A stretch of DNA of 64,000 nucleotides from Parabacteroides hominis (lineage in GTDB: Bacteria > Bacteroidota > Bacteroidia > Bacteroidales > Tannerellaceae), in the NCBI RefSeq assembly GCF_014287585.1, contig NZ_JACOOJ010000024.1:1-64000 (forward strand), written 5' to 3'. A program made the translations under genes and the position numbers. Numbering within the stretch: position 1 is the stretch's first letter; every line of letters starts with the position of its first letter. A model generated the notes under the pieces. That model saw only the letters and a list, made by a program, of their open reading frames with translations. It searched no databases and was not told the origin of the DNA. Shown piece after piece: positions 2,846 through 7,675 of the stretch.

Positions 2846-2916
2846 TCCCGAAATCATAAGCCTCACATTTATTCTGTCAATCGAATAATCCCTGATTTGA
2901 ACAGGCTCGAAACTAC

Positions 2917-2975
2917 AAATCCCCTTGTTCCTGCGCTTGACGACTATGGCATAAAGCGTGGGGACAAGGGGATTT
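2917..2975. terminator. Long inverted repeat between convergent genes, probable bidirectional terminator
   Basis: The arm at 2917-2931 (AAATCCCCTTGTTCC) pairs with the arm ending at 2975 (GGGACAAGGGGATTT), with one wobble. An inner CGCTT/AAGCG pairing extends the structure. It lies between the convergent mutarotase-like gene and tyrA. Both arms end in short A/T runs, so it can end transcription from either side, although neither side has a long T tract. Confidence 0.6.
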
Positions 2976-3004
2976 TGACATACCTCCGGTCAGGATGAAG
3001 ACGT

Positions 3005-3778
3005 TTATTCGATATTCTTCCTGATCTTTGTCAGGTATTCCTTCATCCCTTCCGAATCTTTGTCTTTGATGATTCCCTGCAAGATGTCCAGTTCTTCCTG
3101 GATACGTGCAATCTGATGAGGCGTGCGCGGGTTGAAAAGGATTTCCGTCAATAGGTAATCGTCTTCGGAAAGCAGGCCTCTGGCAATCTTCATGTGACGT
3201 TTGAAGGTCGTACCCGGAGCATCCTGGTGCTTCATCGTGGCAGCGAATACCATGGTGGATGCAAACGGAATGCCGAGCGAGTAAGCCACGACTTTGTCAT
3301 GTTCCTCGAAAGTATATTCGCAGATATGCAGGCGCAGGCTGGAATAGATATCTTTGAAGAATATTTTCCCCAGATGATCCCCTTCGGAGATAATGATCGT
3401 ATTTTCTTTTTCCAGTTGCCCTAAGTTGGCGAATGTCGGGCCGAACATCGGGTGGGTGGAAACATACGGGAAACCGCATGTCTCGTAGAATTCTTTCAGA
3501 TGCGTCTTGACCGATGCGATATCCGAAATGATGCAATATGGTTGCAGGTAAGGCATGACACTCTTGAACGCTTCGATCGTATAGCTTAGTGTCACGCAGT
3601 TGATGACTAATTCAGGTTTGAACTCGGCTACTTCTTCCGGCTTCTGCAGGCGAAGGGCGTTATAAATGAAGCGCATCCGTTTCGGATCGTTTTCCAGCAC
3701 AGCCACTTCATGTTCAAAGCTAAGCAAATCGGTGAAGAAAGATCCCATCTTCCCTGCACCCAATATCAGTATTTTCAT
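3005..3778 (-). CDS. tyrA: Prephenate dehydrogenase, tyrosine biosynthesis
   Basis: Oxidative decarboxylation of prephenate to 4-hydroxyphenylpyruvate in tyrosine synthesis. The protein opens with a Rossmann NAD(P)-binding motif (MKILILGAGKMGSFF), followed by the TyrA helical domain with conserved STHPMFGP. I place the start at the ATG at 3778, right before the Rossmann motif and 13 bases after the stop of the upstream gene. A longer reading from ATG 3802 would add eight residues (MNNNNLPI) and overlap that gene by 11 bases. At about 257 residues it is short and has no chorismate mutase or ACT domain of its own; the mutase is fused to the preceding DAHP synthase. It is the last gene of the attenuated Phe/Tyr operon. 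Confidence 0.9.
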   Translation of the reverse strand: MKILILGAGKMGSFFTDLLSFEHEVAVLENDPKRMRFIYNALRLQKPEEVAEFKPELVINCVTLSYTIEAFKSVMPYLQPYCIISDIASVKTHLKEFYETCGFPYVSTHPMFGPTFANLGQLEKENTIIISEGDHLGKIFFKDIYSSLRLHICEYTFEEHDKVVAYSLGIPFASTMVFAATMKHQDAPGTTFKRHMKIARGLLSEDDYLLTEILFNPRTPHQIARIQEELDILQGIIKDKDSEGMKEYLTKIRKNIE

Positions 3779-3791
3779 TATTGGCAAATTA

Positions 3792-4862
3792 TTATTGTTC
3801 ATTCATGATGATCATCTGTTGGCGGACGGATTCTTCATGAATTTCTTTCAGGATTTCTTTGACAAAGTCCGTGTTCAGTTCCATCTGTTCACCCATGTTG
3901 GAACGCTTTTCCAAAATCTCGCTGTAGCGTGGTGATTGCAGGATCGGCATATTGTGTTCTTTCTTATAGACACCGATCTCGCGGGAAATGCGCATGCGTT
4001 TAGCCAACAGTTCCAACATCTGTTCGTCGATACCGTCGATCTGGCGGCGGAGTTCGGCCAGGTTTTCCGTTGTCTGGTTGGAGTCGCGGATGACCAATAA
4101 ATTCAGGACGTAATCCAATACATCCGGCGTGATCTGCTGTGAAGCGTCGCTCCAGGCACAATCCGGGTTGCAATGCGATTCGATGATCAAACCGTCGAAA
4201 CTCAAGTCCATAGCCTGCTGGCAGAGGGGAGCGACCAGTTCGCGTTTACCTCCGATATGGCTCGGATCGCAGAAGATCGGCAGGTTCGGCATACGGCGGC
4301 GCAGTTCGATAGGAATATGCCAGAGCGGGAGGTTGCGGTACATCTTCTTATCATAAGAGCTGAAACCGCGGTGGATAGCACCCAGGCGGCGGATACCGGC
4401 TCCATAGAGACGTTGGAAAGCGCCGATCCACAACTCCAAATCCGGATTGACCGGGTTCTTGATCAAGACAGGAACATCCACACCTTTCAGGGCGTCGGCA
4501 ATTTCCTGTACGGCGAACGGGTTAACCGTTGTACGGGCGCCGATCCACAACACGTCGATCCCTGCTTTCAAGGCTTCGAACACATGGTCTTTCGTTGCCA
4601 CTTCGGTAGTCACGTACATACCCGTTTCCTTTTTTACCCGTTTCAACCATTGCAGGCCTTCTGCACCGATTCCTTCGAATCCGCCCGGTTTGGTACGAGG
4701 TTTCCAGATTCCTGCTCGGAACAGCTTGATGCCTTTGTCGGCGATTCCTTTTGCTGTTTCCATTACTTGCTCTTCTGTCTCTGCGCTACACGGACCGGCG
4801 ATTACGACAGGGCGTTGCGGGTCTATACCGGGTAACATGATCGATTCTAATTCCATTTCCAT
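3792..4862 (-). CDS. Bifunctional DAHP synthase / chorismate mutase (type II)
   Basis: A 356-residue fusion. Residues about 10-265 are a class I-beta (KDO8P-synthase-like) 3-deoxy-7-phosphoheptulonate synthase, with the GPCSAE motif and KPRTKPGGFEG. Residues about 270-350 are an AroQ-type chorismate mutase (LAELRRQIDGIDEQMLELLAKR...ISREIGVYKKEH). It thus catalyses the first step of the shikimate pathway and the branch step from chorismate to prephenate. In related fusions the mutase domain also gives prephenate or chorismate feedback control. It lies between the aminotransferase (21-base gap upstream) and tyrA in one minus-strand operon, so all steps specific to Phe and Tyr are together. Confidence 0.93.
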   Translation of the reverse strand: MEMELESIMLPGIDPQRPVVIAGPCSAETEEQVMETAKGIADKGIKLFRAGIWKPRTKPGGFEGIGAEGLQWLKRVKKETGMYVTTEVATKDHVFEALKAGIDVLWIGARTTVNPFAVQEIADALKGVDVPVLIKNPVNPDLELWIGAFQRLYGAGIRRLGAIHRGFSSYDKKMYRNLPLWHIPIELRRRMPNLPIFCDPSHIGGKRELVAPLCQQAMDLSFDGLIIESHCNPDCAWSDASQQITPDVLDYVLNLLVIRDSNQTTENLAELRRQIDGIDEQMLELLAKRMRISREIGVYKKEHNMPILQSPRYSEILEKRSNMGEQMELNTDFVKEILKEIHEESVRQQMIIMNEQ

Positions 4863-4883: not shown

Positions 4884-6080
4884 TCAATATGCTAATGTGC
4901 CAATGTTTTCAATTCTCTTCAGTGCTTCTTCCAAAGTCTCGTTTTTACAACAGAGCGAGATGCGGATGTAACGTTCGCCCTGGCTGCCGAAGATGAATCC
5001 CGGTGTCAGGAATACATTAGCTTCGTACAAGACTTTGTCGGCTATCGCTTCGCTGCCTTTTGCCTCGGCGGGGATTTTTCCCCAGAGGAACATGCCCACC
5101 TGCTTTTCGTCGTATTCGCATCCTAACGTGTGCATGATCTGTCCCGCCAGGTCACGTCGGCTGCGGTAGACGCGGTTCATATTGTCGTACCATTCTTTCG
5201 GGGCGCTCAGTGCTTCGACGGCTGCGTGTTGCATCGGCTTGAACTGTCCGGAGTCGATATTGCTTTTCACTTTCAGGACCCACTGTACGAACTGTGCGTT
5301 GGAAGCGAGCATTGCCATACGCCAACCCGGCATATTGTGCGCCTTGCTCATGGAGTTCATTTCGATACAGATGTCTTTCGCTCCCGGCACGGACAGGATG
5401 CTTAACGGATGTTCGTTCAGGATGAAGCTGTATGGGTTGTCGTTGCAGATGATAATCCCGTGTTCCTTTCCGAAAGCGACCAGCTTTTCGTAGAGTTCCA
5501 TGCTGGCATTGGCTCCTGTCGGCATATTCGGGTAGTTGGTCCACATCAGCTTGACGTTCGAAAGGTCCATCTTTTCCAGCTCTTCGAAGTCCGGTTGCCA
5601 GCCCAGTTCCTCTTTCAGCTCGTAAGAGATCAGATTGGCCTCGACCAGTTTGCTTACCGAACTGTAGGTCGGATAACCCGGATTGGGAACCAGCACGCCG
5701 TCGCCCGGATTCAGGAATGCCAGCGAGATGTGCAGGATTCCCTCTTTGGAACCGATCAACGGTTGGATTTCCGTTTTCGGGTCGAGATCCACGTCATACC
5801 ATTTTTTATACCAGTCGGCAAAACCTTTACGCAGTTCGGGAATACCGACATACGGCTGATAACCGTGTTCGTTCGGCTGATGAGCATGTTCGCACAATGT
5901 CTCGATTGTCCGTTCCGAAGGAGGAAGGTCGGGACTGCCTACGCCGAGGTTGATCACGTTTTTACCTGCGGCATTCATTTCGGCTACTTCTTTCAGTTTC
6001 CTGGAAAAGTAGTATTCCTGTACGCTACCTACACGGTCAGCGGGTGTAATTGTTTTACACACTTTGTTTTCCTTCTGCAT
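4884..6080 (-). CDS. PLP-dependent class I/II aminotransferase, probably aromatic or aspartate type
   Basis: A 398-residue fold-type I aminotransferase. The PLP lysine is in NSMSKAHNMPGWRMAM, the substrate carboxylate arginine in RYIRISLC, and the nucleotide-pocket segment is VGSPDLPPS. The start at 6080 overlaps the end of pheA by 26 bases, which suggests translational coupling. Its place between prephenate dehydratase and DAHP synthase/chorismate mutase argues that it transaminates phenylpyruvate and 4-hydroxyphenylpyruvate to Phe and Tyr. Sequence alone cannot exclude aspartate or LL-diaminopimelate aminotransferase activity. Confidence 0.88.
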   Translation of the reverse strand: MQKENKVCKTITPADRVGSVQEYYFSRKLKEVAEMNAAGKNVINLGVGSPDLPPSERTIETLCEHAHQPNEHGYQPYVGIPELRKGFADWYKKWYDVDLDPKTEIQPLIGSKEGILHISLAFLNPGDGVLVPNPGYPTYSSVSKLVEANLISYELKEELGWQPDFEELEKMDLSNVKLMWTNYPNMPTGANASMELYEKLVAFGKEHGIIICNDNPYSFILNEHPLSILSVPGAKDICIEMNSMSKAHNMPGWRMAMLASNAQFVQWVLKVKSNIDSGQFKPMQHAAVEALSAPKEWYDNMNRVYRSRRDLAGQIMHTLGCEYDEKQVGMFLWGKIPAEAKGSEAIADKVLYEANVFLTPGFIFGSQGERYIRISLCCKNETLEEALKRIENIGTLAY

Positions 6081-6900
6081 ATTCGCCTAATATTTTTAAG
6101 TCTTTTGTCAACGGTCTGATAGCATCCAATGCCTGTTTGTAGCGCAGGTAATCCGTGAATGTCAGATTGATATAGAACAGATATTCCCATTCGCGGCCGA
6201 TGATCGGCAAGGATTGTATTTTGGAAAGATTCATGTCGTAGAAAGAGAGGACGGAGAGTACTTTGGAGAGGCTGCCGGCTGTGTGGGGGAGAGCGAAAAC
6301 GACGGACGCTTTGTTTTTGTCTTCACCTTTGAGCATCTCGTCTGCCGTCCATCGGTCGGCTATTGCCAGGAAGCGGGTGAAGTTGCGTTTGTTTGTCTCG
6401 ATCCCTTCGGCAAGGACTTCCATATTGTAGATCTGGGCGGCCAGTTTCCCGCAGATGGCGGCGTGTCCTTTCAGTTGGTTTTCCGAAATCCACCGGGCAC
6501 TCATGGCGGTGTCTTCCTTCTCGACCACTTTCGCGTTGGGCAGCGTATCGAGGAAGTCGGTACATTGCATCAGGGCGATCGGGTGGGAGTTGACCTCTTT
6601 GACATCGTGTATATTGGTTCCCGGAAGTGCAACCAGCGAGTGGGAGATACGCAGTTTGTATTCGCCGATAACCTGCAAGCCGCTTTCACGGATCAACTCA
6701 TGGTTCTGCAACAAGCTGCCTGCGATTGTATTTTCGATCGCCATCATTCCTAAAATGGAAGGATCTTTCTTGATGGTCGAAATAACGTCTCTGAATGTAT
6801 TGCAACCGATAATTTCAATCTCTTCGCCTTCGAAATAATTACGGGCGGCTATGTCGTGATACGAACCGGCTATTCCCTGGATTGCTACTTTCTTTTTCAT
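6055..6900 (-). CDS. pheA: Prephenate dehydratase with C-terminal ACT domain
   Basis: Converts prephenate to phenylpyruvate. The periplasmic-binding-like catalytic domain (residues about 1-180) has the family's TRF motif in NFTRFLAI. An ACT domain follows (TAGSLSKVLSVLSFYDMNLSKIQSLP...), which in this family binds phenylalanine. The usual ESRP signature of that domain reads QSLP here, so feedback sensitivity may differ. It is a monofunctional dehydratase of 281 residues with no fused mutase, which is instead on the DAHP synthase. It is the first structural gene of the operon, preceded by an attenuator and a Phe/Tyr-rich leader gene. ATG 6900 follows AAAGAGAAG. Confidence 0.95.
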   Translation of the reverse strand: MKKKVAIQGIAGSYHDIAARNYFEGEEIEIIGCNTFRDVISTIKKDPSILGMMAIENTIAGSLLQNHELIRESGLQVIGEYKLRISHSLVALPGTNIHDVKEVNSHPIALMQCTDFLDTLPNAKVVEKEDTAMSARWISENQLKGHAAICGKLAAQIYNMEVLAEGIETNKRNFTRFLAIADRWTADEMLKGEDKNKASVVFALPHTAGSLSKVLSVLSFYDMNLSKIQSLPIIGREWEYLFYINLTFTDYLRYKQALDAIRPLTKDLKILGEYAEGKQSV

Positions 6901-6962
6901 CTTCTCTTTATATTTTCTTTAAATTGTCAACTGTCAACTGTCAATTTTCAATTGTCCGTTAC

Positions 6963-6993
6963 AAAAAAAGTCCCACCGAAACCGGCAGGACTT
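6963..6993 (-). terminator. Attenuator terminator of the Phe/Tyr operon
   Basis: On the minus strand an 11-bp stem (AAGUCCUGCCG with CGGUGGGACUU, two G-U pairs) closes a GUUU loop and is followed at once by seven U. It stands between the leader gene and pheA, where only an attenuator makes sense. Its 5' arm can pair instead with the 3' part of the leader gene: 7036-7052 with 6984-7000, 16 of 17 positions including G-U pairs, core GGCAGGA with UCCUGCC. This gives a mutually exclusive antiterminator. Confidence 0.9.
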
Positions 6994-7033
6994 CATATAT
7001 TGTTATTGATATATACATTCATTCATCAACGCT

Positions 7034-7108
7034 TTACATACAAACTCCTGCCTTCACTCTGCTAAAGTAAAAGTAATAAAAGTAATATGTAAAGCTAAAT
7101 CGATTCAT
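7034..7108 (-). CDS. Phe/Tyr-rich leader peptide (attenuation control)
   Basis: A 24-residue gene, beginning MNRFSFTYYFYYFYFSRV and ending VKAGVCM before TAA. Twelve residues (4 to 15) contain five Phe and five Tyr. ATG 7108 follows AAAGAGAC, a plausible ribosome site. The codons after the aromatic run (GCA GGA) are the strand that forms the antiterminator with the downstream terminator arm. Ribosomes stalled for lack of charged tRNA-Phe or tRNA-Tyr would leave it free and allow read-through into pheA. Ribosomes that finish the peptide would cover it, and the terminator would form. The architecture is seen directly; the regulation is inferred from known proteobacterial phe and his leaders. 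Confidence 0.9.
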   Translation of the reverse strand: MNRFSFTYYFYYFYFSRVKAGVCM

Positions 7109-7135
7109 TTTGTCTCTTTGTTTTTAAATACGCAG

Positions 7136-7165
7136 CAAAAGTAACGCTTTTTTGGAAACTACAAG
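7136..7165 (-). promoter_or_regulatory. Promoter of the Phe/Tyr operon
   Basis: On the minus strand the Bacteroidetes -7 element TACTTTTG (7136-7143) lies 27 bases before the leader ATG. An imperfect -33 element, CTTG (7162-7165), lies 18 bases further upstream. Transcription would begin near 7129, giving a short leader of about 20 bases before the leader gene. Confidence 0.6.
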
Positions 7166-7210
7166 CATAAAGTGATAATTTTTTTCATTACATCCGAAAT
7201 ATTTATTCCG

Positions 7211-7675
7211 TCAGGGTTGTCTTCTTAGCCAGATAGACATGAATCGGTCGTATATCATGTATCCTTTTGCCGACTTGTAGGCAATCTCTCTATCAATCAG
7301 TTTTGCTAATGCCGTGTTCACGCTGCTGGCGGCTTTCAGCTTGTATTTCGAGATGAATTTTCCGGAGTTTATTTCGGCTACGGTTCCCTCTTTCGCTATC
7401 GCTTTCATTAATTTGGCCGCCACTCCGGAATAGGCTGCTATCAGATTTTGGTATCCATAGACACCTTCGTCCGTCAGTTCCTGTATGGCGCGATTGGTGA
7501 ATGTTTTGTCTGCTATATCTGTGTCATAACCGTATAATCTGTTTATCAGTGCCTGCATATACCTGGTATGTCCTTCAAACTCGTCATACATATAATAGAA
7601 CGTGCCACTGTCGAATTTTCGGTTTACCTCTTGGAAGGAATGTTTTCTTGAAACTATTGGGATGATTTCGGGCAG
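7211..7675 (-). pseudogene. C-terminal remnant of an AAA-type ATPase
   Basis: The readable part (MYDEFEGHTRYMQALINRLYG...) is the C-terminal region of the large Bacteroidetes/archaeal-type ATPase family: the FEGHT...YMQ...NRLYG motif, then a winged-helix end with INSGKFISKYKLKAASSVNTAL. The frame stays open upstream of ATG 7591 back to a stop at 7676 (reading ...KHSFQEVNRKFDSGTFYYM). There is no N-terminal Walker A region, no start codon with a ribosome site, and the family is normally near 380 residues. I read it as a decayed 5'-truncated gene. Nearby bases at 7676-7846 hold no recognisable rest of the protein. Confidence 0.7.

Follow-up and report, generated by a model that had tools for sequence, protein, structure and literature searches.

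Operon and leader architecture

The window, a stretch of 64,000 nucleotides from Parabacteroides hominis (contig NZ_JACOOJ010000024.1), carries on its minus strand four genes of aromatic amino acid synthesis. These are pheA, encoding prephenate dehydratase (6055–6900; PF00800), a class I/II aminotransferase gene (4884–6080; PF00155), a gene for a DAHP synthase fused to chorismate mutase (3792–4862; PF00793 and PF01817) and tyrA, encoding prephenate dehydrogenase (3005–3802; PF02153). The Pfam identities agree with the operon content given in an earlier note, which had proposed from the sequence alone that a Phe/Tyr leader peptide and an attenuator precede pheA. Read along the minus strand from 7164 to 6963, a promoter, a leader frame and a terminator follow one another, and pheA (6900–6055) comes next. 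Just behind tyrA, the last gene of the operon, and between convergent frames, a stable hairpin (2895–2985, minus strand; z = −4.8) is found, possibly the operon end or another element.

The putative promoter (7136–7164, minus strand) combines a TTG at 7164–7162 in the −33 region, a spacer of 18 nt and the sequence TACTTTTG at 7143–7136, which matches TAnnTTTG, the −7 box motif of Bacteroidota. The RNA would then start about 7 nt downstream of this box, near 7130. A generic sigma-70 scan is uninformative here and not above chance (two sites found versus 2.6 in shuffles). Upstream of the leader, at 7211–7591 on the minus strand, lies a 126-codon open frame with no Pfam match at E ≤ 1. Its reading is broken by stops just upstream and a similar stretch occurs in only two of 80 pheA loci (L002 and L003), so that it may be a decaying gene.

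The leader frame (7034–7108, minus strand) begins with ATG, ends with TAA (7036–7034) and has 24 codons. Its predicted product, MNRFSFTYYFYYFYFSRVKAGVCM, matches nothing in Pfam or NCBIfam at E ≤ 1. Annotated records of one P. distasonis and one B. finegoldii, with an incomplete gene table, list pheA and nothing at the leader. Codons 4–15 (7064–7099) contain five Phe and five Tyr codons, which confirms the ten aromatic codons counted before, and this sensing run forms the 5′ part of RNA segment 1. The fold and the comparison of relatives place the aromatic codons opposite the end of the frame in a protector hairpin 1:2 (7025–7104). Segment 2 (7036–7052), the 5′ strand of the antiterminator as defined by comparison of pairing, finds its alternative partner in segment 3 (6984–7000), whose 3′ part doubles as the terminator's 5′ arm. 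The 16 of 17 pairing positions that the earlier note had assigned to these two segments can be read directly off 7052–7036 and 7000–6984 if G–U is counted. The intrinsic terminator (6963–6994) has a stem of 12 bp by folding (6994–6967) that extends into the beginning of the U7 tract (6969–6963); the 11 bp claimed previously differ from this only as a matter of counting. The fold of the leader RNA has an energy of −48.1 kcal/mol compared with a shuffle mean of −29.8 kcal/mol (z = −5.3), and none of 200 shuffles is as stable. Between the terminator and pheA, at 6925–6951 on the minus strand, stepwise TTGACAG/TTGACAA repeats are present, a 13-mer of which (with up to two mismatches) has seven matches in the window versus 1.4 expected.

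Conservation in close relatives

The close set comprised 80 pheA loci, mostly from Parabacteroides, Tannerella and other Tannerellaceae, with some from Dysgonomonadaceae and Bacteroides. The leader frame is found in 73 of them. Five of the remaining seven cannot be judged, four being cut by contig ends (L015, L030, L066 and L078) and one having a stretch of N's inside the frame (L053); L068 and L071 have their full upstream DNA and no leader. Of the 70 relatives tested, 69 have TAnnTTTG no more than 80 nt ahead of the leader ATG, compared with 3.7% of shuffled segments, and in 66 of these 69 the distance to the ATG is 26–40 nt.

In an alignment of 70 sequences, 552 of the 560 codons at positions 8–15 encode Phe or Tyr, the third base is T or C in all 560, and Phe and Tyr exchange with one another at codons 9, 10 and 11. 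Taken together, these three features constitute a coding signature. Conservation of the frame and of its aromatic codons, with silent third-base changes, had been predicted for such an alignment, as had compensatory changes in the stems. The latter were sought in each helix, using as a control a shift by one to three alignment columns. In helix 1:2, 87.9% of the cells are paired versus 46–53% when slid, and 14 of 33 pairs show changes on both sides, a count confined to the close relatives; its outermost part of six pairs is weakly kept (70% of cells), as is a 2 bp inner helix (63%). The antiterminator helix 2:3 is paired in 95.0% of cells (34–54% slid) and five of its 12 pairs have changed on both sides, although these changes amount to only six cells, the pairing being nearly constant among close relatives. 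For the terminator helix 3:4 the corresponding value is 97.9% (37–63% slid), again with some pairs changed on both sides. Three loci (L055, L062 and L070) have their stop codon ahead of segment 2 and still retain the nucleotides of segment 2 and of the hairpin base, which argues that these nucleotides are maintained for pairing and not for a peptide tail.

A covariance model of the 70-sequence alignment has exactly one match in every one of the 35 genus genomes; in G005 the codon run is present on two contigs, and the model reports one of them, cut by the contig end. The bare pattern (TWY)7 was dropped as a marker because it is as frequent as its reversed control. Preceded by TTYACN, it occurs once in each of the 35 genus genomes with no control match, and in 24 other genomes it gives one match and one control match. 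The genes upstream of the element belong to 31 families in 63 loci (the largest family having 25), which indicates that the element travels with pheA and not with an upstream gene.

Distribution across the class Bacteroidia

For the wider survey, a leader was called when a frame of 8–50 codons with at least six Phe, Tyr or Trp codons in 12, followed by a terminator, was found within 420 nt upstream of pheA. The unselected set was drawn evenly from genomes of the order and the class and holds 97 pheA loci (L081–L177). A leader was called in 74, none in 20, and three cannot be judged, giving 74 of 94 judgeable pheA genes; one of the 20 loci without a call, L111, has an aromatic frame without a called terminator. 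The background of the caller is eight in 840 random windows and one in 492 dinucleotide shuffles. A phylum-wide sample of 19 further loci yielded 14 with a leader, 12 of them from the class (three already in the unselected set) and two from outside it; the five loci without a leader are all from outside the class. Among 20 chosen pheA loci outside the class, 18 have no leader, and the other two, from the same two genomes as in the phylum-wide sample, have one before a multi-gene operon.

A terminator was found with 145 of 148 leaders in a set that includes the close relatives. The 5′ arm of the terminator has an upstream partner at p ≤ 0.05 relative to shuffles in 136 of these 145, and in nine the partner is not better than in shuffles. 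For 71 class-wide loci, a locus's own partner averages −14.6 kcal/mol versus −9.8 kcal/mol for partners swapped between loci, and ranks among the best 5% in 32 and among the best 10% in 42. The 5′ arm still finds its partner although the peptide, the terminator stem and segment 2 vary widely across the class. Judged by these sequence features, the predicted Phe/Tyr leader device is widespread in the class Bacteroidia.

Leader codons and downstream genes

The relation between leader and operon was studied in longer DNA of 140 class loci, 123 of which have a leader. This set is partly chosen: 80 loci come from 99 matching genomes of the unselected draw, of which 19 were left out, 12 of these being loci without a leader (L114–L117, L121, L122, L124, L136, L137, L152, L176 and L177), and the other 60 were hand-picked from 184 matching genomes, with families having a stand-alone pheA enriched on purpose. 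The fraction 123/140 therefore overstates leader frequency, for which 74/94 is the unselected figure, and the set was used for codon content only. An operon was called multi-gene if pheA is followed by at least one gene for an aminotransferase, DAHP synthase, chorismate mutase or prephenate dehydrogenase (tyrA), and pheA was called stand-alone if 3500 nt or more of DNA contain none of these. No judgement was made for L291; L286, with a Phe run and only pheA seen in less than 3500 nt of downstream DNA, was assigned to neither group. Seven full or partial operons and nine loci with only pheA seen have no leader in this partly chosen set.

Every one of the 115 leaders in front of multi-gene operons has a run with Phe as well as Tyr; Tyr falls to a minimum of one residue in L245 and L230. 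All seven leaders of stand-alone pheA genes are Phe runs; five lack Tyr altogether, and L219 and L285 have one Tyr each, near the peptide start and outside the Phe run. The split into mixed and Phe-run leaders by gene content has a Fisher p of 1e-7, a value to be read with the relatedness of the loci in mind, as they are not independent and the seven stand-alone leaders, from four families, represent few independent events. The caller selects aromatic frames and cannot on its own create a division between Phe runs and mixed runs. Enough DNA was available for 15 stand-alone pheA loci; seven have a leader and eight none, two of the latter (L281 and L284) having Phe-rich frames below the threshold.

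Genomes in which the pathway is split provide an internal comparison. Twelve genomes with only pheA at the locus were searched for a second locus, and both leaders are readable in four (G053, G063, G406 and G567); G521 has a leader only at tyrA, and in the rest, the sequence runs into the end of a contig or locus or shows no leader. In all four readable cases a Phe-run leader stands at pheA and a mixed leader at the other operon. In G053 the pheA leader is MTRFFTHFFFFFTQQ, compared with MNNTFGYYAFYYYFFYNN before tyrA–DAHP synthase/chorismate mutase–aroB. In G063 it begins MRRNSFRFFFFFAFFFCNG, compared with MIKNISVFAYFYYYFYFSKK before aminotransferase–DAHP synthase/chorismate mutase–tyrA, with near twins in G406 of the same genus. 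In G567 it is MTPVLNSNFFFFFFGNPKKGL, compared with MALAHTYFTSNFFFFYFSNKRGRTM before tyrA–DAHP synthase/chorismate mutase; two overlapping frames qualify at L366 of this genome, and the one with more aromatic codons was taken. The tyrA, aroB and aminotransferase genes of the split genomes were identified by Pfam (six of these and related proteins). Two genomes with a stand-alone pheA, G134 (L362 and L369) and G440 (L360 and L370), have a pair of long DAHP synthase/chorismate mutase matches each, and the second copy (L369 and L370) has no leader.

Among the loci compared, then, the codon content of the leader follows what the downstream genes make, which fits what is required of a sensor of tRNA charge. 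In 25 of the 115 operon leaders a Trp codon lies inside the run or at most two residues away from it. Trp makes up 14 of 202 interrupting residues versus 22 of 1345 flanking ones, an excess that is only suggestive because the leader windows were chosen by their Phe, Tyr and Trp content. A tentative extension, which we hold to be possible but doubtful, is that the attenuator has been re-tuned within the Bacteroidia, to Phe at stand-alone pheA genes, to Phe and Tyr at operons with DAHP synthase/chorismate mutase or tyrA, and in about one fifth of operon leaders also to Trp, so that it would sense all three aromatic amino acids that are fed by the shared DAHP synthase.

Proposed mechanism and alternative readings

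Ribosome-mediated attenuation is a textbook mechanism that has long been known, and the region in front of pheA has the same classical design. Clustered codons for the pathway products, an intrinsic terminator, an antiterminator that excludes it and a protector hairpin 1:2 are all found here. Comparison of the sequences establishes these parts, their order and conservation, the mutually exclusive pairing and the dependence of codon content on gene content. In our view the region is almost certainly a ribosome-mediated transcription attenuator. The fuller statement, that its sensor reads two amino acids and that Tyr is among its inputs, is made with good but lesser confidence.

Transcription, translation, stalling and a response to Phe or Tyr are predicted to proceed as follows. 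RNA polymerase would start near 7130 and a ribosome would translate the 24-codon leader. With charged tRNA-Phe and tRNA-Tyr plentiful, the ribosome would reach the stop codon (7036–7034) and cover segment 2, leaving segment 3 to fold into the terminator, and transcription would end near 6963. If Phe or Tyr is short, the ribosome would stall in codons 4–15, with its front edge short of segment 2 and hairpin 1:2 blocked; segment 2 would then pair with segment 3 and allow read-through into pheA, the aminotransferase gene, the DAHP synthase/chorismate mutase gene and tyrA. In the absence of a ribosome, hairpin 1:2 would form and the terminator would win. The aromatic operon would probably run only when Phe/Tyr is scarce. 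Distances along the RNA are compatible with such a scheme. In the window, segment 2 lies 14 nt from the first base of the final aromatic codon. The median of this distance is 13 nt for 119 leaders across the class, 111 of which have at least 9 nt and 75 at least 12 nt; four of the 123 leaders were left out because their pairing was weak or the stretch too short. If a ribosome of the assumed footprint has the stop codon in its A site, it covers half or more of segment 2 in 99 of the 119.

The reading that deserves most attention beside this one is that the attenuator answers in practice to Phe only, as E. coli pheL does and C. glutamicum AroR reportedly does, the Tyr codons being tolerated since UAU and UAC serve the RNA pairing like UUU and UUC. 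The exchange of Phe and Tyr at codons 9–11 and the location of these codons in hairpin 1:2 speak for it, as does the report that AroR, with its Phe-Tyr-Phe motif, shows no Tyr response (PMC11802643). Under free drift, however, Tyr-free operon leaders would be expected too, whereas both residues are present in every one of the 115 operon leaders, Phe runs stand at stand-alone pheA genes and the split genomes separate the two kinds. In the leader studied here the Tyr codons also equal the Phe codons in number, unlike in AroR as described. We consider a Phe-only response unlikely. The earlier suggestion of one leader for both end products is strengthened by codon content that follows the operon and by the unlike leaders of split operons; sensing of Tyr itself is a prediction, against which the Phe-only behaviour described for AroR (PMC11802643) has to be set.

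Two other explanations were rejected. The tail RVKAGVCM is conserved in the Tannerellaceae, as might be expected if the frame encoded a working small protein or a TnaC-like arrest peptide that binds a free amino acid and does not report tRNA charge. This tail is, however, explained by RNA pairing, because the letters of segment 2 outlast the stop codon in the three loci that terminate before it, and across the class both tails and residue order differ, while the aromatic content stays; the explanation is highly improbable. That the terminator merely belongs to an upstream gene, with an accidental frame and no regulation, might be suggested by the remnant at 7591–7211 on the same strand. A promoter box nevertheless lies between that gene and the leader, the upstream neighbours are of many families, and leaders are called at pheA at a rate far above that in random windows (74/94 versus 8/840), so that the probability left to this explanation is negligible. 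The two-amino-acid attenuator is the reading that we retain.

Relation to known systems

The window has no match to any Rfam family, riboswitches and T-boxes included, at the gathering score. The Phe_leader model (RF01859) gives 18.7 bits at the pheA leader (E = 1), below its cut-off of 55, and Bacteroid-trp (RF01692) is absent from the eight matches at E ≤ 10 in 6900–7250. The pheL leader contains Phe codons. The pheL/pheA attenuator of enterobacteria (RF01859) likewise has a leader upstream of prephenate dehydratase and is described as regulated by Phe-charged tRNA (PMC11802643), and differs from the present case, in which both Phe and Tyr codons and four genes are involved. AroR of C. glutamicum is closer in being a mixed leader, Phe-Tyr-Phe, upstream of a DAHP synthase (aroF) operon, where ribosome stalling is reported to answer to limitation of Phe and not of Tyr (Neshat 2014, as cited in PMC11802643); it has three such residues and belongs to another phylum, compared with the five Phe and five Tyr codons found here before an operon with pheA and tyrA.

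Within the genus itself, a leader attenuator of another operon, for another amino acid, is represented by Bacteroid-trp (RF01692), which was found in 20 of 31 relatives, 17 of them above the cut-off. Leaders encoded by the Bacteroid-trp elements of the genus (L389–L391, near position 1520 of the strand matched by the Rfam model) include MRTIIVNTYWWWRSLQLIRS, and in the three loci read, three Trp codons stand in a row (WWW). Leaders for several amino acids of a branched pathway are exemplified by E. coli ilvGMEDA (Ile, Val and Leu) and thrABC (Thr and Ile), which concern other amino acids and another phylum.

A structured 5′ element in front of pheA has been reported in Flavobacterium psychrophilum and further Flavobacteriaceae, together with clues to leader-peptide attenuation upstream of amino acid operons in general (PMC9723704). 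The element concerns the same gene in the same class; its description there, as far as consulted, gives no Phe/Tyr leader or pairing. In B. thetaiotaomicron, small frames reminiscent of leader peptides are described (PMC7366714). Our literature search found no Phe/Tyr leader described for Bacteroidota, although a prediction for Bacteroidetes in earlier surveys of attenuation is possible. The novelty claimed in the earlier note survives in this narrower form, given the trp leaders of RF01692 in the genus and the pheA 5′ element of flavobacteria (PMC9723704). As far as the compared sequences indicate, what is new is the dense putative Phe/Tyr sensor, widespread in the class, and the way in which its codon content tracks that of the operon; the mechanism itself is known.

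Biological implications

The literature search found little on the control of aromatic amino acid synthesis in Bacteroidota, which are major gut bacteria. The predicted attenuator offers one concrete switch for this pathway, at 74 of 94 judgeable unselected pheA genes. The rule that leader codons follow operon output would let a frame of about 20 codons reveal the product of an operon. The leader is also a candidate for a single ribosome-reading device with two inputs, where the experimentally known mixed leader AroR reportedly takes one (PMC11802643).
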